This document shows positions 13,325-63,402 of a DNA stretch of 64,000 bases, one piece after another; positions within the stretch are counted from its first letter, which is position 1; each line of letters starts with the position of its first letter. This DNA comes from Astropecten irregularis. Its lineage: Eukaryota > Echinodermata > Asteroidea > Paxillosida > Astropectinidae. The DNA is taken from positions 9,612,541 to 9,676,540 of the forward strand of contig OZ020256.1 of the NCBI GenBank assembly GCA_963971285.1, given 5' to 3'. The position numbers were made by a program, and so were the translations under genes. The notes under the pieces are model-generated. The model saw only the letters and a list, made by a program, of their open reading frames with translations, made no database searches and was not told the origin of the DNA.

Positions 13325-13975
13325 TTAAAGGTACACGACGGCTTCAAAGTTCTAAAAAATCAACATTGTAGAGTCTAACACATTATTTCTAGAACACTTA
13401 ATGAGGATTTTCGTAAAAGAAAATCAGAAAAATATCGCGTAATTAAGGTTAATTAACAGAAAAACAAAATGAGGTCAAAGGTCAGCGTATACGCATTTCC
13501 AGCCTCAGTAAGTGTTGGAAGGATGTGGTACATGGTTTTAGACTGGTACTCGTAGCTGTGACTTAAATGTTGCAGCTACCGTATGGGAATTCCAGGAACG
13601 CGATACACGTTCGTTTTAGCCGTGCACCGTGGAAAAATCATCGGCAAAACATAAACAATTACTGAATTAGGCGAATCTGTTGACAGGCTTTTCAGAATTA
13701 TTCACAAACTGTTTTTGAGCTGATGAAATGTTTGCGAGTTGACGCATATGGTTTGAGTTGACGTAATTTTTGCGAGTTGACGTAATGTTTGCGAGTTGAC
13801 GTAATGTTTGCGAGTTGACGTAATGTTTGCGAGTTGATGCAATGTAATTATCACGAAAACGGCTATATTTTACCGTTTATTTGTGTGGAATGACCTTTCC
13901 AGTTATGGTAAAGGCATCGGCATTGGCGCCAAAAAGCGCCCAAAATAGCGCGACGAGGCCGGCGTGTACCTTCAA
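13325..13975. mobile_element. TTAA element with 19-bp minisatellite (copy 1)
   Basis: Begins 'ttaaaggtacacgacggctt' and ends 'gaggccggcgtgtaccttcaa', i.e. TTAA-like ends with inverted GGTACAC(G/A)CCGGC. Inside is a tandem array of about five 'gcgagttgacgtaatgttt' units (13755-13845). A larger copy is at 35274-36682. Confidence 0.7.
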
Positions 13976-26250: not shown

Positions 26251-29200
26251 CTGTGGACAGGACAGTTGGGTTATTTCTTTTCCTTGTTGAAATACAATTC
26301 TATAGCACAAAACTAGAATCATTTGATTGTTGGAATGATTGATTGATAGAGTTCTTCGAGAATCATGGCAAAGCAGGAAACTAATGAACAGTTGATCGAT
26401 CGACTGATTGACTAACTGACTGCTTTAATAACTGCCCAGTTCCTTCTTACTTACAGAATCAGATTCTTGAGATCGCTGGAGAAGTTGTGGGCTACCAGTT
26501 CCAGAGAGCCCTGTATGTGCTGTCTCTGGATGCTCTGGACAGAGTTGCAGGCTAATACCAGGACCACCTTGCCAAGGGACACCAGGTCTTCTTGCTGAAA
26601 TATTAACAACGACAAAGAATGGATAAGCTCCAAGATAATCACTATTTGCTCCAGTTCTCACATTAGTTGTTCAAAGAGAATCCTTGCAAAACCTACATTT
26701 CATTTCATTTTATTGTCCAGTTGGAAAATCACCTTGTCTACATTAAAGGTAATATCAAACTTTGTTTTTTTGTCAAAGAAATACAGAGTTGTGGGCAAAA
26801 ATATCAAGGAAAATACAGTAACAGTCATCTGTGAAAATTTCAGTCCCATACGGTGCCCACCTTTTGAGAAAAACAGTGAAAAACGGCCACAGTATTTCTT
26901 AAGTCTTTTCTCTTTTATTTTTGATCTTCAAAAGATTAAAAATAATTTTGGTCACTGGTTTTTCTCTTTTCTGGATAATTACAATATTTCAGGTAGAAAA
27001 ATCTTAACGATATGTTTCTACCATCACCATCTTTATACCCTGTAAGTTATAATTAAATCTGTGAAGATTTCTGTTTTGGTTTCTTACCAAAGTATGATAC
27101 TACCTTTAATCCAATAAAACAGAAAACATGAAAGATACATTGACATTGCTTACCATCTTGTCATAACCTTCTGAGGGGCATTGAGTCTATACATTTGTAT
27201 AAGAACTACTATATCTTCTTATAGTTTCATTTTTTAATGTGAATCACTCAGCAAATGATTTGGCCACATGTTTGGTTCAAATTTCACTAATCCATCAACT
27301 TTAACACATTTCAAGATATCTTGGGTAAGTGTTAATTTCAGACATATTTTTCTTACCTGGTAGTGGGATATCATGGCAAGTGGGTTGTTACCGCCATCAA
27401 ACGTCAGTACATCAAAGATGCCTACGCAGTTGACTCGCAATCGGGACTTGCCTGACACCAAGATCTTGGTGGGATCCATGACTCGACAGGCCAGGCCGGC
27501 AGCGTGTATGGTGCGTAGGGCGGAGGAGAGCTGAACGACATAGGTCCAAATGAGACTCTCAGGCAGGAGACCAGTGCGTGGCTGGGGACCGTTGACACCT
27601 GACAGGGTTCAAAGGTCAAATTTCACATAATACTAGGGACAACAAACAGTGTAGACAGTGGTACTTGAACTAATGGTTTCGACAATGGTACTTATTTCAT
27701 TAAATGAAAAAAAAAACGATATTAAAAACTTTGAAATCACTTAAAGTGAATAAATGACTGGCTGACCAATGACTGTCCCACCACTGAGTAACCAATCACT
27801 GAGTAACCAATCACTGACTGACCAATCACTGACTGACCAATCACTGACTGACCAATCACTGACTGACCAATCACTGGCTGACCAATCACTGAATGACCAA
27901 TCACTGAATGACCAATCACTGGCTGACCAACCACTGACTGACCTGTGTGGTGCGGTCCTTGTGGTCCCATGAAGCCCCCCTTGTGCTGTTGTCCTTTCCC
28001 AAAGCTGTTGCTACCGCCACTGAAGCCGTTGCTAGCCTGGGCCCCTGGGCCAGTGAAGTGTCTGTTCATCATGGTCAGGGCAGTCGGATGGTAGTCATGG
28101 ACAAACACCGTGGCTAGAGGGAAAAAGGACATACAAAAATGACCAGTGTCTTTGTTTTTCTCCTTTGAAATTAGAAGTTAAACACCTCCACCCACCCCCT
28201 GGGAAAAACCCTGACAAACAAGCCAAAGGGAAAATTTGGCAAATAGAGGAATGAACTGTCAAGAAAGAAGCATTTTGTTGGTAGCCCATTGACCATCCAA
28301 AGTACTGTATACATATTCAGCCACAGTCCATCTTATTGTACCCACTGAACATGGGATGTGTCTTAGATATATCCCAAGAATTCTTTAAAAAAAAAAAACC
28401 CAAAGTAACAAACATCAGAACCAATCTTAGAAATTCATAAGGCAAGAATAACTGCTCTTGTGAACACATCAACTCCTTAAAGGGAACACGATATAGGATT
28501 AAATCTACAATGATATTTTGTGTCTCGAGCTAATTATTTCCTGGATTAAATATGAGAAAAAAAATGTTGAAAATGTTTGTCCAAGCTACTACTCCCCTTG
28601 AGTGGGACCCTCATTAACATAAATCTTCCCAAATGCGTGACGTAAATCGAGGAAGCTGCAGCCACGCGCGCGCGAGCCGGCGCCCAATTCACCGGCCGGT
28701 CACATTGTATATATGCATGTCCACGAAGCCTAAAATCGTTTATCAAAAATACTTTTCGAGAAAAAAGGCTTCAAAGATTTTACACACACGGTTTTACGTT
28801 GGTCTGTGTGGGAGACGGATCACTGAACAGCAGCTTGCCGGCAATGCCGGGGGTCTGTGACCGTGCAAGTTAAGATGTTTTCTAGACCTTCGATAAATTT
28901 CCGCCCCTCGATCTGCGTCACGAACAGCGCCCTCAATTTGAGTCGCGGCAAATTCCCAAAAGGGGGAGGCAATTTTTGGGCGGCAAAAAATCAAATGAAA
29001 AGTTCACTTGCACCAGTTTTGCTTTTAATTCACATTTAATACATTACATAAATGAATTTATTTATGAAATAAAATGCGATACGCCCAGTTCAAGCAGCTT
29101 GTTTCCTTTAAATGTTTGTCCACATCCATTTAGCTATTTATTGCTGCAGCAGTCAGCACTCAACACCATCACAAGTCAGCTACTGTACAGATACTGGAGC

Positions 29201-32200
29201 TATACACTTAACATCAATATAAGGCAATGAGACAACATTAAAGAGCCAAGATGGATTCAACTTCATTGGTTAATGAGGAATCCATTAATTATACTGAGCT
29301 CAGAATACAAGCCTGTATCATTCATTATGTGAGAGTAGAACCTGGCCATCCTAAACAGTAAGCAAGAGAGGGCGTCCTGGACTAGTTCTACTTACAATGT
29401 TCTCCAAAGGCTTTAGTGCTGAAGACTTCTCGCAGCGTGACTATGTTGGAATGCTGTAGTTTCTTCCACTTGTCCACAAGAACCATCCACTGTGTGTTGG
29501 TCATCCTAAAGCCTGTTACAGTCAACGGTAGAATCACACAGGATTAGGAACGATTTTGTTCATGTAGGAGTTTTCAGAAATAATGGGAAACTGACTGAAT
29601 TTAAAGTCACTGCAAAGTGAACAAAAGAAAAATTTACTGGAGCGGGATTCGAACCAACGACCTCCTTAACACCAAACAGGCACTCTACCAACTTGAGCTA
29701 TCCAACCCTACGTTGGTGGTATCCCAGTCAGTTTTTCTTTTACGAAACCTTTTTAATGAATTTAAAACTTGGAGTTAGGAGGGCCTGATATTTCAATCCT
29801 AGCAGAATCTTTCTCAAAAGTGTAACACTTTCAGATTACCGCATGATTGTTTTCAAATTCCATTCCCATGTACTGATTATTTATAAGCAAACAAGCAGTG
29901 ATAGATCAAAATGAAGTTAAGCAAATTCAGAATCACAATTAAGTTAAAGTGAAATACTGTTTATCAATTCTTTTCCTCAAATGCTGGCAGAATAAAAAGT
30001 CATAACTTATCCTTGACACCAAGACCAGATAGATTGGTGTGCATTACTTCCTGCTCCAGGGATGCAGGGATGGGACTAGTGTGTCTAGCTATGGACTCAC
30101 CATGTATTCTTCTGAGGCAGTACAGCTTGTTATCCTTCTTGTTGATGGCCTTGTAGCATGTGGTGGTATAGCCAAAAGTACTGGATTTCTCCATGGGGCT
30201 CTTGGGAGGTGGTTCCAGGGGGAACAACGTGTGATACTTGTCTACTTCCTGTGGAATGTCTGTAGGGTGAGGGAAAGAGGAGGAGGGGGTGACCAGGGCA
30301 ATGAATGAGGGAAAAATGGGAATCCATTGACCTCAATGCTTCAACGACCACTCCTAGTGCTGCCCAATCGCTTTAAGGCTTTATTGGTGAGTTTAAACTT
30401 TGTAAATGCAATTTAAGGGTTGATGCATTCTTTGCAAGTAATAGTAATTATGTTCAGTTAAGTATGTATGGTATGATGGCTATGTATTCTTATTAAGAGA
30501 GCAACGTCATAACACAAACACAGTATTAACTAATTCCCATATTCCAGATATCAATTTGAACTCCGGAGTAGAAAGAAGCCAATCCACTTTATAGCTTTGT
30601 CTGCAAATGATTAAAACCCAGCCAGTGGAGATTCCCAATGCTTGTTTCTCTGAGACACTGTTTCCAATGCATCATGATTTCAATAAAAGATACAAACATA
30701 GATGAATTATTAAACCAGAGGATCACAATAGCCATCCTGAGCACAGCCAATCCCCAGTGGGGCTCGGTCTTAAAGTTGTCCTAAAGATATTGCGCTTGAT
30801 GCACCAGACACCCACAACCACGGACCCAACAGGATTACCAACAGCCTCCCAAACCCCACACCCCTGACTATAGAGGAGGAGCCAAGTGGTCCACTCTACA
30901 TGGAGCTGATCCACCCTACCTACCTGGGTTCTCTCCAGGATCTACCTGGGCCATGGATACCGCCCTACAGGGGACTGATCTGCCCTACCTACCTGGGTTC
31001 TCTCCAGGATCTACCTGGGCCATGGACACCGCCCTACATGGGGCTGATCTGCCCTACATACCTGGGTTCTCTCCAGGATCTACCTGGGCCATGGACACCG
31101 CCCTACATGGGGCTGATCTGCCCTACCTACCTGGGTTCTCTCCAGGATCTACCTGGGCCATGGACACTGCCCTACATGGGACTGATCTGCCCTACATACC
31201 TGGGTTCTCTCCAGGATCTACCTGGGCCATGGGCACCGCCCTACATGGGGCTGATCTGCCCTACATACCTGGGTTCTCTCCAGGATCTACCTGGGCCATG
31301 GACACTGCCCTACATGGGGCTGATCTGCCCTACATACCTGGGTTCTCTCCAGGATCTACCTGGGCCATGGACACTGCCCTACATGGGGCTGATCCGCCCT
31401 ACATACCTGGGTTCTCTCCAGGATCTACCTGGGCCATGGGCACCGCCCTACATGGGGCTGATCTGCCCTACATACCTGGGTTCTCTCCAGGATCTACCTG
31501 GGCCATGGACACTGCCCTACATGGGACTGATCCGCCCTACATACCTGGGTTCTCTCCAGGATCTACCTGGGGCATGGATACCGCCCTACATGGGGCTGAT
31601 CTGCCCTACATACCTGGGTTCTCTCCAGGATCTACCTGGGGCATGGGCACCGCCCTACATGGGGCTGATCTGCCCTACATACCTGGGTTCTCTCCAGGAT
31701 CTACCTGGGCCATGGACACTGCCCTACATGGGGCTGATCCGCCCTACATACCTGGGTTCTCTCCAGGATCTACCTGGGCCATGGGCACCGCCCTACACGG
31801 GGCTGATCTGCCCTACATACCTGGGTTCTCTCCAGGATCTACCTGGGCCATGGGCACCGCCCTACATGGGGCTGATCTGCCCTACATACCTGGGTTCTCT
31901 CCAGGATCTACCTGGGCCATGGACACTGCCCTACATGGGACTGATCTGCCCTACATACCTGGGTTCTCTCCAGGATCTACCTGGGCCATGGGCACCGCCC
32001 TACATGGGGCTGATCTGCACTACCTACCTGGGTTCACGCCAGGATCTACCTGGGCCATGGACACCGCCCTACATGGGGCTGATCTGCCCTACCTACCTGG
32101 GTTCTCTCCAGGATCTACCTGGGCCATGGACACCGCCCTCTTGTTGTATATCTCCATCTTGAGTTCCTCACCAACAAAGAATGATGGAGCATTGGGCTTG

Positions 32201-35200
32201 GGCTTCATGTACGCAACATGGGCAGGCATGGACTGATACATGTGGAAGTTGGGATACACCTAGACAAATAAATCAACCAAACAATTTTCCTTTTTACTTC
32301 AAATTGCTCCAATACATGTACCTTTCTATTTCAATTAAATTGAACACCTGGGGCCGATTTAACAAATGCTTTGCGATCATCGCTAAAGCCCAAATCCATT
32401 GCTAAACTTAAAATTGCTACGTACAGTAGTGATCGATTTCCCGTTTAGCGATGATTGCAAAGCGTTAGTGAATTCGGCTCCTGATCTTTCCAAAGGACAA
32501 GAAGAATGAGCATGTGTTTTATGGGTATAAATTGACACCTCTCTCCTTACCCAAAGGCAGGTAAGTCTGGTTAGATTGAAGTTAGTCTGCCTGTAGGTAG
32601 ACTGAAGATAGTCAGACCTTGCATGAAGCTGAACCACATATTATACCAGCTTCAGAAAGCAAGCGAAGATGGCAGGTTACAAGTTCAGGTCAAAGTTCAA
32701 AGTTCAAGGGATCATTACTCGCTGCAGTATTTCTTCTCAAACTTAAACTCTATTGAGGAGGGACAGTTTAGACTATGCAGACAGGTCTACATATTAGCAT
32801 TAATATGTCTGAACAATCTGTCTCAACAACAACTGATTAAGAAAGATTTGAGGCTTTCCATGATGGCAATTGGTAAATGGATTGGGTTTGCGGAAACACA
32901 ATGTAAGAATCATTCGTACTTCTCGTAAAAGCTCAATGTTTTGACTAGCCTGCTCTAGTCATCATCAGGAGATGATGATGATGACTAGATGATGACTAGA
33001 GCAGGCTAGTCGAAACGTTGAGACTTTACGAGAAGTGCGAACGAAATAGAAGTGCGAAAGTACGAATAATTTTTACATGGTGTTTTCCTGATTGAGGCAA
33101 CAATTTGTCCAACAAGGTACATTACCTCACTTGCGATTCTATCCGAGAGAATGTTTTCAGTTTTTAAAAAGTAATGTAGTACAGTGGATTGCCGCTATAA
33201 CTAACATGGCGTTCGTTACAGTGATTTAAAGAACCTTATTGGGTATGTATTATACACAAAAATTGGGAGCCAAGGATGATGTACGGTATTGCCAAATGTT
33301 CGGTATAGCAATGTTCATTCCACTGTACGAATGCAAGGAGTTTGGGAAAGGATAGATATGTTTTTATCTCTGTTGTACAGGATTTGAACAGCCTATGGCT
33401 TGAGGTCTTGCATGGCAGGAGAACAATCTATGAAGGTCTGAAGTGTCATCATGTGAATTCATATCTTCTCTAAGAAGTGCGGGTCAGAAAGGAACCTGAG
33501 GTTGTTAACCGGATATTACTGGGAAGTATTCTCTGGCTATCTTCATGAGAGTAATGTCTGGGTTGATTCACAGTGTGTCAGGGCCAATCTCTTCCGAGTC
33601 ATTGACGGGAGGAATACCATCCATGGACTTACAGCTCTTGGCATGGATGGCTGCACCTGGTCCTCTGTGTAGAAGTATGTTGTACCACCGATGTTCTCCT
33701 GCACCATGGCACCGGGGAAGTTACCCTGGGCTGAGTTGATGTCCAGGGGTGGGGGCTGGCCACCTTTCCTTCTCATGGACGGGGAATTTCCTGGGGAGTG
33801 GAGGGGTGAGGCACCAGCTGAGAGGGATCCTGGTGAGGTTGGTGAGATAACAAGAAATTGAGGTCTTCATTTAGGCTTCTAATTTTTCCAAGGTTTTGCA
33901 CTTTCACATCTTAAATCAGCACATCTTCATTTGCAGCAGATATCCGCATGGGATAAACTTTTGCAGAAAAGGAAAGTTTTTCACACCTGAATTATAGTGG
34001 TCGTTCATTCCGCCCGAGTTGTGGGGCCCCAGCGAGGCCGAGTTGTTGTTAGCCCCCCTCATCCCGCTGGCATCGTTCATCATGCCATTGCCTCCTGGCT
34101 GGGCATGTGACCTCGGGACAAACTCTGGTATCTTGGAGATGAGATCATTAGGCGTGGGGCCACCTGGCTTGAAGTCAGCCACGTTCCGGACGTTGGGCAG
34201 GAACTCAGCAGAGTTGGCACCAGGGTTGGCATTGTGGTTGCGTGGGGTGAACTCCTTGATGGTGCCCGTGTTGCGGACGCCGGGGTAGAACTGCATGCCC
34301 TGGACGTTAGAGTTCTGATGTTAGAGAGAGCCAGACAACGAGCCAATCAGATGCAGCTGCTGCCACATTATGATTCTTATTCTCTCGGCCAGACTCTTTA
34401 TCCCTATGTGTGATAAGCAACTCTTGTCTTGTGTGGTAAGTGCAGAGGGCTAGCTTAACGGACATTCTCTTCAACATGTCACTTTCTTTAACTAAGACAC
34501 AGTATTAAAGCCCCCTGCTTCGATCGACGTGCAACTAAAAATACTACTTCTACTTCTAATAAACCTTTTGGGGAAAGCCTCTGTCAGGGAAAATTATTTG
34601 ATTGTGCATATTTCTGTCTCCTTATGACTGTGTTTTCCTCTTTTTTTTGATGACTTCCTTGAACTTACATAAACAGCTAAATCCACAGCAAGACCTCTCT
34701 GTCTGTGGGTTTTAATTTGGCTTGCTAGCATTTTCAGGTGCTGTTAGCACGGCACTGCCAATGGTGCACAGATACAATCAGAGTCTTGATGTTGAGGGGA
34801 AATTTGCCAAAGACGGCTCTGGCGTGATAAAGATCTTCCCTGCTCTGTGCTGCCACATTCTTCTCCAGCAAAGGAATGAAAACAAAACTATCAAGAAATG
34901 AACGTCCTTCACCTACGGACTTAAAAACAGACAGAATTGAAGGAGATAACCAAGCCCTTGTAAAGCTTGAAAAGGTAAAATAAAATCCAGATTAAAGGGA
35001 AACGGCAAAAACAACGGGACAAGGAAACTTACCACATCATTTGGGGGCGAGACCTTCATCCCACCAAAATTGGTCGCCATTCTTGAATCTGTATTGGGCC
35101 CTGGTTTGTATATAAAACAAAACAAAACAAATTGACCAGTTGATGGCAGAGTTACAACCGTCGTTAAAATAATAACTATTACAACAAAATTACTGATGAA

Positions 35201-38200
35201 GTTGGTACAAATATAACAATTTCTTAAAGGCATAAAACACTACCCCAAATTCATGCAAATTAAGTATGTATATTTAAAGGTACACACCGGCTTCAAAGTC
35301 CAAAAAAATGAAGAGTGAAGAGTACAACACAATATTTCTAGAACACTTGATGAAGGTTTTCGTGAAAAAAAATCTGAAATATGTCGTTTAATTAGGGTTA
35401 ATTAACGGAAATCAAAATAAGGTCAAAGTTAGCGTATACGCATTTCCAGCCGTAACAAGTGTTAGAAGGATGTGGCACATTAGACTGGTACTCGTAGCTG
35501 TGACTAAATGTTGCAGCTCCCGTATGATAATTCCAGGAACGCGACGTACGTTCAAGCTGTTTACAATACTAAAATCATTGGCAAAACAACAAAACAAATC
35601 TGTTGAAAAAATAAGGCTTTTCAAAATTATTCACAAAATGTTTCGAAGTTGACACAATGTTTTTGAGTTGATGCAATGTTTTTGAGTGCGCAATGTTTTT
35701 GAGTTGACTCAATGTTATCGAGTCAGTGATGCAATGTTTGCGAGTTGGCGCAATGTTTGCGAGTTGGCGTAATGTTTGCGAGTTGCCGCAATGTTTGCGA
35801 GTTGGCGTAATGTTTGCGAGTTGGCGTAATGTTTGCGAGTTGACGTAATGTTTGCGAGTTGTCACAATGTTTGCGAGTTGGCGCAGTGTTTTTGACGAAA
35901 GGATTTTGGGGCATGATCGATGAAACAATTTCGATCTGTTCCAAGCTCTATGTTTCGAGGGACCGAAACGATTTCCACATGAATACACAAAATATAATTT
36001 TTATAATGACACAAACAGATTTTGAGGGCATGAAATGATTTTCATGCATGACAAGAAATTATCTCCAGGCTTTCCCGCTCCGTTCGAAAATCCCACCAAA
36101 AAAACAAAAAATTGTAACGGGGACCGGGTGAGTGACTCAGCCACTTGCATGCCGCGCGGTCTCGCATGAAAAATACTACACGAACATCCGTGCGTGGATG
36201 GATCGGGCCGCACTGGTTATCACGGGCCCATGCCTCGGGCTGAATGCGTCGTAAACCCCCACGCGCTGTGTCTGCAGAGGTGATAATGCACCCGTAGTGA
36301 CCGGACTTTCATAAAAAATTAATTTGGCATGTATTTATTTTGCCTGTTCGCGTTGGAAATTCCTGATTTAAAAAAGGGAACACTAGGTCAAATCTTAAGT
36401 TGTTTTGGTTAAAAAAGAGTGATTAAACAAAAAGTTATACGTAAATTTTGTATAGTTAAACAGCTTTTAAACGACTGGAAATGGATCTATCAAAATTTTG
36501 ACTCATGAAATCACGTGACTTCCTTTCTTTTCGTAATTATCACGAAAACGGGTAAATTTGACCGTTTATTTGTGTGGAATGTTCTATTCTACTTTTTGAA
36601 GACCTTTCCAGTCATGATAAAGGCATGCATTGGCGCCAAAAAGCGCCCAAAAAAGCGCGACGAGGCCGGCGTGTACCTTTACACAAATATGTCACAGCAA
36701 CAGGAAAATTGTGACAATTTATTCAGAGCTATAATTTGGCAGATTTGCAATTTCAAAGAGTAACAAATGGGACTACAACTGATAGCGTTTTCATGTTGTT
36801 GGTGATCTGTAGTATATGAAACAGATTGTAAGATCAATGCCTTGGTTCAGTATAGGAGTACACTGTACACAAGACTGTTTCTGAAATGACTGAAGTCCGT
36901 CTGATGGTCAGATGATGTTGGTCTGGATAGAGTAAGGCAAATGGGTCATGTTATAATGACTGTTAGTGACAGGGTTTACCTGGAGGTGACATTGGTCCAA
37001 ACATGGCTCTTCTAACATCTTCCTCTCCCCTAATGCCATCTTCAGAATAGTTGGACAGACCAGTGCCGACTGAGTGTGACCTCTGCAATAACAACCAAAG
37101 ACAAATAAACAATAATAATCAACGCTCAAGCAATCATTTCATGTCCTTATGTACCGCTCCCCCGATAGCGCTTCAGGGCATTTCCACTGTTTGAGGACAT
37201 TTCTGTAAATAACTTACCTCTTTTTGGGGGGCAAATTTGCATGCATTTCAAGGAATCGCAAATGCTATACTTGGTTATTCCAATAAATTTTTTTTTAAAT
37301 TGGAGTCTTTCAAGAATGATTGATGAAGGAATAGGTCAAAGTCACTTAACAGGTAACTTACATTACTGTGGAATTGCCCTTCACAGTAAGAAGGCCAATA
37401 TTGTGAGCAGGTGGCAAGTTGAACGAATGAAGACGATTATCAGAGCTGAAGGACTTGCTTAATAGGAGTAATCAGCGCAGGAGCAGGTTGACTACCTTCA
37501 GTCTGGTACATTAAATCTAAGATGTGGCATGGCATCTCTTGGCAACGAGCAGAACATAATGCCAAATTGTACATTAACCATCAGCTGAACTGAGACCGTA
37601 ATCTACTGACAAATATTCACCTATGTCACGCTGTACATGTACAATTGTACATGTACATGGTACATGTAACTGCATGATGCTCAAGAGTATACACAAACTA
37701 CATGGAATGTAGACGTAGGTCCTTTGAAAACAAGGCTCTCGATGACATGTAACCAAGATAACAGTACAACCAAGTGGGAGTAAGACATGGGTGATTTGTT
37801 TCTTCAAATGTGGCAGAGCTCTCAACAACTGCAAAATATCACATCAAATACCACACAAGCAGCTAATCAGACCTACATGTATTGCATGGCAGAATGCTGT
37901 TAAATTGTATTACTAGCAGTGTCACATGTTACAATATGAAACAGCTCAGACGTAAACAACCTTCAATGGCGTTTAAGGGGATAAATAGTTATAATGACAT
38001 GCACATGCACCGTCTGGTAGATCCATACATCATATGCTGTAAACTGAGAAGGTGTAAGTCTGTCTGGTGGATCAGGCAGCAAAGAGTGCCGCATTCTGAC
38101 CGACGGCCAACGGTGTATCTTCTCTTCCAGCACTCTGCAACCCAATACCCACTGCAGCATGAAGATTCAACATGACCTTCCCAACAATTTTGTTTCCACC

Positions 38201-61493: not shown

Positions 61494-63402
61494 GGGAGCT
61501 CATCCAAAAGGTTACACCGCGGTGTCACCGCAATCACCGCGGTTTGGACGGGTCCTTAACAACCAGCCCACTTTCGACAGTCCTTGCTTATTTAGCATAT
61601 TAAAAGAACTGACTAACAAAACTCCCTATTGTTATTTTAACTACCCACTGAACGCGGTGGCCGCGGCGCAACCGCAGACGCCACAGACTCATTTCTGTCT
61701 GCCGCGGCCACCGCGTCTGATCTTGGAGACAAAAAACCAAACTATTACTTCCTCACTGAAAATACATTTTTGGGGGACTTGGCTTGGACCATTTTCTCTG
61801 GGACCTGCATTATTTTGTCTCTACCAAACTATTATTTAATGGCCCCGGCTAAAAATACGTGTTTTTTTTCAGGGACTTGGCCGACCATTTTCTCTGGGAC
61901 CTGCATTATTTTGTCTCTACCAAACTATTATTTCCCCGGGGGAAAATGTGTTTTTTAGGGACTTGGCCGACCATTTTCTCTGGGACCTGCATTATTTTGT
62001 CTCTACCAAACTATTATTACCCCCCGCTGAAAATACGTTTTTTTAAGGACTTGGCCGACCATTTTCTCTGGGACCTGCATTATTTTGTCTCTACCAAATT
62101 ATTATTACCCCCAGGGGAAAATACGTCTTTTAGGGACTTGGCCGACCATTTTCTCTGGGACCTGCATTATTTTGTCTCTACCAAACTATTATTACCCCCG
62201 GGGAAAATACGTCTTTTAGGGACTTGGCCGACCATTTTCTCTGGGACCTGCATTATTTTGTCTCTACCAAACTATTATTACCCCCGGGGGAAAATACGTT
62301 TTTTAGGGACTTGGCCGACCATTTTCTCTGGGACCTGCATTTTTTTGTCTCTACCAAACTATTATTACCCCCGGGGGAAAATACGTCTTTTAGGGACTTG
62401 GCCGACCATTTTCTCTGGGACCTGCATTATTTTGTCTCTACCAAACTATTATTACCCCCGCTGAAAATACGTTTTTTAAGGACTTGGCCGACCATTTTCT
62501 CTGGGACCTGCATTATTTGTCTCTACCAAACTATTATTACCCCCGGGGGAAAATACGTCTTTTAGGGACTTGGCCGACCATTTTCTCTTGGACCTGCATT
62601 ATTTTGTCTCTACCAAACTATTATTACCCCCGCTGAAAATACGTTTTTTAAGGACTTGGCCGACCATTTTCTCTGGGACCTGCATTATTTTGTCTCTACC
62701 AAACTATTATTTCCCCGGGGGAAAATGTGTTTTTTAGGGACTTGGCCGACCATTTTCTCTGGGACCTGCATTATTTTGTCTCTACCAAACTATTATTACC
62801 CCCGCTGAAAATACGTTTTTTAAGGGACTTGGCCGACCATTTTCTCTGGGACCTGCATTATTTTGTCTCTACCAAACTATTATTACCCCCGGGGGAAAAT
62901 ACGTCTTTTGGGGACTTGGCCGACCATTTTCTCTGGGACCTGCATTATTTTGTTTCTACCAAACTATTATTTCCCCGGGGGAAAATGTGTTTTTTAGGGA
63001 CTTGGCCGACCATTTTCTCTGGGACCTGCATTATTTTGTCTCTACCAAACTATTATTACCCCCCGCTGAAAATACGTTTTTTTAAGGACTTGGCCGACCA
63101 TTTTCTCTGGGACCTGCATTATTTTGTCTCTACCAAACTATTATTTCCCTGGCTGAATACAGGATACGGTTTCGGCCAGCGGGAAATTTCATTGATGAAC
63201 CGCGACCACCGCGTTTGCTAGTGCATAATTCATAAGTATCAACATAACAATAGCACTCGTTTTGAGGCTCTGCCTCATTAACTTGTCACCGCATGGGTGA
63301 TTTTTTGTGCAAAGGGCCGCGTTCGCCGCGGTCCTTGGCAACAAGCCTAAACCGCGGTGGCCGCGTGCGGTCAGACCGCGGCGACCTTTTGGATGAGCTC
63401 CC
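61494..63402. mobile_element. 1.9-kb TIR element (Harbinger-like TAA target) filled by an 87-bp minisatellite
   Basis: Perfect 19-bp TIR gggagctcatccaaaaggt at both ends, flanked by direct TAA (61491-61493, 63403-63405). Subterminal regions are rich in ccgcgg. The centre is a tandem array (below). TAA/TTA 3-bp duplication is typical of PIF/Harbinger elements; no transposase or Myb-like ORF is present. Confidence 0.85.
61770..63160 (+). repeat. 87-bp minisatellite, about 16 copies
   Basis: Units begin 'gacttggccgaccattttct' and recur every 86-88 bp (61777, 61874, 61960, 62048, 62135, 62221, 62308 and on to about 63089). Variants alternate 'cccccgggggaaaa' and 'cccccgctgaaaa' linkers. ORFs of 201 and 164 codons simply translate the repeat. 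Confidence 0.95.

Follow-up and report, generated by a model that had tools for sequence, protein, structure and literature searches.

A minisatellite spanning the boundary of exon 7 and intron 7 in the PAN3 gene of Astropecten irregularis

In a window of 64,000 nucleotides of Astropecten irregularis DNA, on the minus strand, the boundary between exon 7 and intron 7 of PAN3 is repeated 18 times in tandem, each copy carrying a consensus 5' splice site. On the reading that we prefer, with a probability of about 0.78, the array is a neutral minisatellite of the mirage type, which lengthens intron 7 and is removed by splicing at the donor of its first copy.

Results

The repeat unit spans an authentic exon-intron boundary of PAN3

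We identified the gene from its minus-strand translations, which match human PAN3 (PDB 9qtu_A) and fly PAN3 (4bwp_A) across a series of exons. The labels 'exon 7' and 'exon 10' follow the numbering of an earlier note on this DNA. Aligned with residues 278-470 of human PAN3, the spliced exon 6-7-8 peptide gave an E-value of 8.5e-47. The identity of PAN3 rests on these PDB sequence matches, since Pfam gave no match reaching its cut-off in the five PAN3 frames scanned. A separate check of the stretch near exon 9 returned no match, and exon 9 matched human PAN3 in another comparison. Rfam, at its gathering thresholds, reported nothing in the window. A PAN3 exon query detected no relative in a collection of non-eukaryotic genome contigs and a collection of viral contigs, one scan each, both scans being weakened by the overrun of the query into the intron and by three of its six peptide patterns, which were judged useless.

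The exons around the array were then placed as follows (a slash within a sequence or between two positions marks a cut). Exon 7 (32097-32259, minus strand; 163 nt, starting in phase 0 and ending in phase 1) lies between the acceptor TCTAG and the donor CCCAG/GTAGGT, and its peptide, VYPNFHMYQ...MAQVDPGENP, aligns with human PAN3 (9qtu_A). The upstream exon sequence, exon 6 (taken here as 33633-33866, minus strand), ends at 33633 with the donor AGCT/GTAAGT. Intron 7 (30260-32096, minus strand) is 1837 nt long, 1199 nt of which are array, and leads to exon 8 (30101-30259, minus strand; 159 nt), whose acceptor, CTCTTTCCCTCACCCTACAG/ACA, lies beyond the array. Over the exon 7-8 junction, the peptide MAQVDPGENP/DIPQEVD aligns with human MAQIDQADMPAVPTEVD without a gap, which supports the donor at 32097/32096 and the acceptor at 30259. 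With the junction placed at 32097/32096, the array unit takes its first 43 nt from the end of the exon and its last 26 nt from the beginning of the intron.

A single array was detected by Tandem Repeats Finder at 30896-32139 (period 69, 18.0 copies, 95% matches, 0% indels), with a score of 2236; the top score in 10 simulated first-order Markov windows of 64 kb was 60. Cut at the exon edge, the minus-strand array falls, between 32139 and 30898, into 18 units, each exactly 69 bp long. The array and its register are established, as are the reading frame and the homology to PAN3. The units flanking the array fail to match (58/69 differences before the first, 41/69 after the last), and blastn retrieved no further array copies elsewhere in the 64-kb window. 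Copy 1 (32071-32139, minus strand) holds the authentic exon end and the donor 32097/32096 (GTAGGTAG); copies 2-18 (30898-32070, minus strand) hold 17 extra donors, whose last exon-side bases are 32028, 31959, 31890 and so on down to 30924. The unit that the earlier note had described, the last 43 nt of exon 7 plus the first 26 nt of intron 7, agrees with this anatomy in 18/18 units. Its proposal that the minisatellite arose from an exon-intron boundary stands as well: homology to PAN3 puts the boundary inside the unit, whereas a boundary outside it had been named as the refuting observation. Its coordinates, 30899-32140, located the array and were one base off.

Every later donor leads to an in-frame stop codon

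Across the boundary the reading frame is ...CCA G/GT A[GT]G TAG, in which TAG is the third codon if the split codon is counted; the earlier note had given it as the second or third. We translated the transcripts expected from donors 2, 3 and 18 (3 of the 17 extra donors), and all of them terminate at this TAG, at intron bases 6-8. Because this stop belongs to the intronic portion of copy 1 itself, none of the 17 later donors can avoid it. The expectation that a wrong donor would make a nonsense transcript is borne out by these translations, and the choice of the first donor as the productive one is favoured both by the gapless human PAN3 junction and by the TAG that later donors take in. The usual rule for nonsense-mediated decay (NMD) asks for more than 50-55 nt between a stop and the junction that follows it. 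With later donors, 61-1165 nt would separate the TAG from the new junction downstream of it, more than this minimum, so decay is predicted. A transcript spliced by leakage at a later donor would therefore stop early, and NMD would be expected to remove it.

The first donor is not distinguished by strength or predicted accessibility

We searched the window for the donor motif AACCCAG/GTA[GT]GTAG and found it in 18/18 array units and nowhere else on either strand, in keeping with the 17 extra consensus donors announced for the intron. Five donors (copies 1, 2, 15, 17 and 18) carry GTAGGT and 13 carry GTATGT; paired with the 5' end of U1, taken as unmodified bases, the five give a duplex energy of -13.7 kcal/mol and the 13 others -10.2, a gap not to be overread, since G and T are nearly equal in frequency at position +4 of donors. 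In U1 pairing, no other copy surpasses copy 1 and 13/17 fall below it; by this energy, pairing is also weaker at the donors of exon 6 (-5.4) and exon 8 (-9.2). Each of the 18 units also contains a second donor-like site, CCCAG/GTAGATCC (-8.3; core CCCAG/GTAGAT), on which the earlier note was silent. The site within the exon itself, GCCCAG/GTAGATCC (GCCCAG at 32119-32124, cut at 32119/32118, minus strand), would on translation shift the frame and reach a stop in exon 8.

The predicted mean unpaired fraction in a long fold is 0.23 for copy 1, within a range of 0.14-0.49 over the 18 copies, and copies 2, 15 and 18 are predicted to be more accessible (0.44-0.49). Copy 1 is thus predicted to be no more open than the others, and we rejected local RNA structure as the cause of first-donor use. 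Donor 2, only 69 nt downstream of donor 1, has a mean of 0.47 vs 0.23 and is also the more open in 3/3 local folds; on paper, it would be a strong competitor. Since donor 2 equals donor 1 in pairing and exceeds it in predicted openness, local strength and structure fail to explain first-donor use. We infer use of the first donor because it is transcribed before the others and, at 163 nt, is the donor closest to the acceptor of exon 7, an arrangement in which exon definition would fix the choice. Donors 2 or 3 would give exons of 232 or 301 nt, which are within the length suited to exon definition, a point against exon definition fixing the first donor. The array is probably removed harmlessly from its first copy.

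The same observations bear on regulated unproductive splicing, in which a controlled share of later-donor use would, through the TAG and NMD, set PAN3 output, with array length as the tuning element. The earlier note had raised NMD-regulated output, and the preservation of the donor motif in all 17 later copies, the position of the stop relative to the new junctions and the qualities of donor 2 speak for this reading. However, the donor columns are not significantly conserved: in the 69-bp unit 13/69 columns are variable, 1/15 among the donor columns vs 12/54 elsewhere (P = 0.16), and the split between exonic (6/43) and intronic (7/26) columns is not significant either (P = 0.21). Selection keeping decoy donors was therefore rejected as unsupported. 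Moreover, 13/17 extra copies carry the weaker-pairing T at +4, the pattern resembles ordinary array turnover, and published mirages, in the excerpts available from the source papers, are said to leave splicing undisturbed. We consider regulated splicing unlikely; both regulatory readings, through NMD or through U1 decoys, are possible but unsupported.

The copies bear the marks of multi-unit turnover

To describe how the copies are related, we compared them with one another and with the array consensus. The exonic part of copy 1 agrees with the consensus throughout (43/43 bases), and its intronic part departs from it at one base; the array is thus either young or kept in step with the exon. 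Several copies are identical (4 = 7 = 10 = 12 = 13; 6 = 11; 3 = 14), and those at the far edge, 17 and 18, differ from the consensus at 3 and 5 positions. Divergence at the edges is not clean, interior copy 9 and copy 2 each differing at 4 positions. Units three apart resemble each other more than expected (mean difference at lag 3 2.33, permutation p 0.0004, and p 0.003 without the end copies), and among the five lags tested, 1, 2, 4 and 5 were not significant. A three-unit periodicity fits multi-unit duplication. An imperfect match between the two edges, with AGGGCGG on the exon side and AGAGTGG past the last unit, may have seeded the first duplication. On the neutral reading, a 69-bp segment across the boundary would have been duplicated in tandem, after which unequal exchange or slippage would have brought the array to 18 units, blocks of several units being copied together. 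Such growth, confined to the intron, would leave the protein unchanged, provided that the spliceosome takes the first donor.

Misassembly is common among tandem arrays. The assembly process could have produced the PAN3 array or altered its number of copies, as was apparently the case for the mirage of amphioxus BflGb6 in a draft genome, according to excerpts of PMC3087553. The copies with variants of their own (for example 2, 5, 17 and 18) and the two clean and distinct edges argue against such an artefact, which we hold to be very unlikely.

On the plus strand, the frames 30774-32162 and 30800-32236 are open over the whole array and could be misannotated as repeat proteins. We rejected them as genes, since open frames are to be expected from a unit of 69 bp (3 x 23): 2/6 frames of the unit consensus are open, and at least two are open in 4283/5000 base-shuffled units. 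A Pfam aldolase match in the frame 30800-32236 (E 0.0012, 18.8 bits vs a cut-off of 27.8) was sub-threshold and was set aside.

U1 decoys and intron gain are poorly placed to explain the array

The 17 extra sites might instead bind U1 and either prevent premature polyadenylation within the intron or delay splicing, an idea close to the decoy U1 binding suggested by the earlier note. The array does hold 18 of the 35 GT sites of the window at -10.2 or better, and the single AATAAA of intron 7, at 30385, lies downstream of it. One AATAAA or ATTAAA in 1837 nt is nevertheless a weak target, and the variation of the donor columns (the P = 0.16 above) lends no support to the suggestion, to which we attach hardly any credence. 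The least credible reading is intron gain in progress, with copies becoming new exons or splitting the intron as in the AGGT duplication model published for amphioxus globins (PMC3087553), human duplications (PMC2812944) and a potato gene (PMC4974935). In its favour, AG/GT occurs twice per unit and the best in-array AG reaches 0.60 pyrimidines (15 nt scored), near the 0.67 of the exon 7 acceptor. Against it, the acceptor in use, at 30259, scores 0.87 and is not part of the array, 0/166 of the in-array AGs scored exceed 0.60, and the PAN3 frame runs into TAG in the intron part of the unit in the translations from donors 2, 3 and 18. The repeat-derived acceptor expected of intron gain was not found, acceptor 30259 being outside the array and no array copy lying elsewhere in the window.

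A second array appears to start at the exon 10 donor

We also analysed a 15-bp ladder of 11.6 copies (27770-27943, minus strand), which starts at the exon 10 donor ACACAG/GTCAGTCA (27943/27942). In the stretch scanned (28080-27480), 27943/27942 is the best-pairing GT (-8.5), and its phase 1 matches that of the acceptor at 27598; the next-best ladder sites, 27784 and 27781 at the far end, are in the wrong phase. Among the best 25 GT sites, donor-like copies within the ladder keep phase 1, four of them being ATTG/GTCAGTCA at -5.0 and the others weaker. The reading frame through the ladder is open, and every extra ladder donor, if used, would lengthen the protein by five residues in frame. With the ladder omitted, the peptide aligns to human and fly PAN3 through the exon 10 stretch; the ladder is likely, although not proven, to be intronic rather than coding, PAN3 being variable here and the ladder-omitted peptide the only one aligned. 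A match of the ladder to the frog protein 7wkk_I was taken as low-complexity. The earlier note had set the exon 7 array apart from this ladder; the contrast in frame holds, but the ladder, too, begins at a donor and is probably part of the intron. Since its unit has no more than the last exonic base in common with the exon, the ladder abuts the boundary and does not span it.

If the ladder does start at the donor, 2 of the 5 minisatellites of the window (unit of at least 10 bp, at least 5 copies) begin at PAN3 donors. Random placement gives at least two such coincidences with a chance of 0.0005 to 0.012 for 12 to 60 donors, in a test that is post hoc and in which the donor numbers are assumed. 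Both array-start donors contain a 4-bp direct repeat (GTAGGTAG and GTCAGTCA). That two arrays of one gene sit on donors is new here if this reading of the ladder is right. A bolder proposal, that 5' splice sites seed minisatellites in the genome and that copy number then tunes PAN3 output, seems to us quite improbable; if true, leaky later donors would produce stops in intron 7 and in-frame additions of five residues in intron 10.

Other features of the window

Elsewhere in the window, a dispersed repeat joins 13325-13836 and 35274-35766 (79% identity over 518 bp), with a 19-bp minisatellite (AATGTTTGCGAGTTGACG-) at both sites, and other parts of the 13325-13836 region recur near 9.8k, 36.6k, 48.9k and 57.9k. 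An 86-bp tandem array of 15.9 copies, or alternatively one with a 173-bp double unit, occupies 61758-63149. At 2592-2891 on the plus strand, an exon-like frame matches the FGF domain (Pfam PF00167, E 1.5e-5, 25.5 bits vs a cut-off of 24).

Discussion

Tandem repeats of exon-intron boundaries were named mirages in the amphioxus Adh3 and globin genes (PMC3087553; the primary source for Adh3, PMC117041, is taken here through PMC3087553 and PMC3902484). According to the excerpts available of PMC3087553, units measure 10-72 bp in Adh3 and 150-160 bp in the globins BflGb6 and BflGb9, copy number differs between haplotypes of one globin gene, and the globin clusters have homogenised units with excluded edges. 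The same source holds that its data suggest that mirages leave regular splicing intact, and that the copied signals could be cryptic sites. In excerpts of PMC3902484, lancelet PGBD5 is described with 60- and 108-bp repeats, the first ones abutting 5' splice sites, and troponin C is cited as a further mirage case; between them, the two papers state undisturbed splicing for Adh3, the globins and troponin C. The PAN3 array resembles the amphioxus mirages in that its unit spans an authentic boundary and copies splice signals, and in its 69-bp, near-identical copies (95% matches), a unit size within the range of theirs. It differs in copy number, 18 vs 2-7 in the globin and PGBD5 cases as far as these excerpts go. 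On homogenised interiors and excluded edges the picture is mixed: copies 17-18 have diverged and several interior copies are identical, but copy 1 is near-consensus and copy 9 departs at 4 positions. Mirages are further characterised by length instability, between haplotypes or tissues, and by undisturbed splicing, whereas the PAN3 array is known from one assembled sequence.

Two other systems come close, in the portions of the papers available. Human segmental duplications contain variable internal tandem repeats at exon-intron boundaries (PMC2812944), a minisatellite expansion to which that of PAN3 is alike; the human repeats can create introns, mostly with a known repeat-retaining transcript, whereas the outside acceptor of PAN3 gives no sign of a new intron. 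In a potato gene, an intron was gained by a tandem duplication that, as in PAN3, crosses a boundary and copies splice signals (PMC4974935). In contrast to the potato gene, no new intron is proposed for PAN3, in which the donor side is repeated, and 18 times. By analogy with these systems, the PAN3 array is a further case of a known kind, though not an amphioxus mirage in the strict sense, and the lineage may not be shared. Our search of the boundary-repeat literature, in which the gene name was not queried and subscription papers lay mostly outside, found no paper on PAN3 arrays, and we do not claim that the array is unpublished.

The locus adds a case to the mirages and offers a natural test of donor choice: 18 near-identical contexts, of which only the first is productive, and in which a wrong choice leaves a clear and countable junction. 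It would show directly whether position, a donor's being made first and lying closest to the upstream acceptor, counts for more than sequence strength and the number of competing donors. Together with the ladder three exons further on, the PAN3 array hints that tandem duplication may start preferentially at donors.
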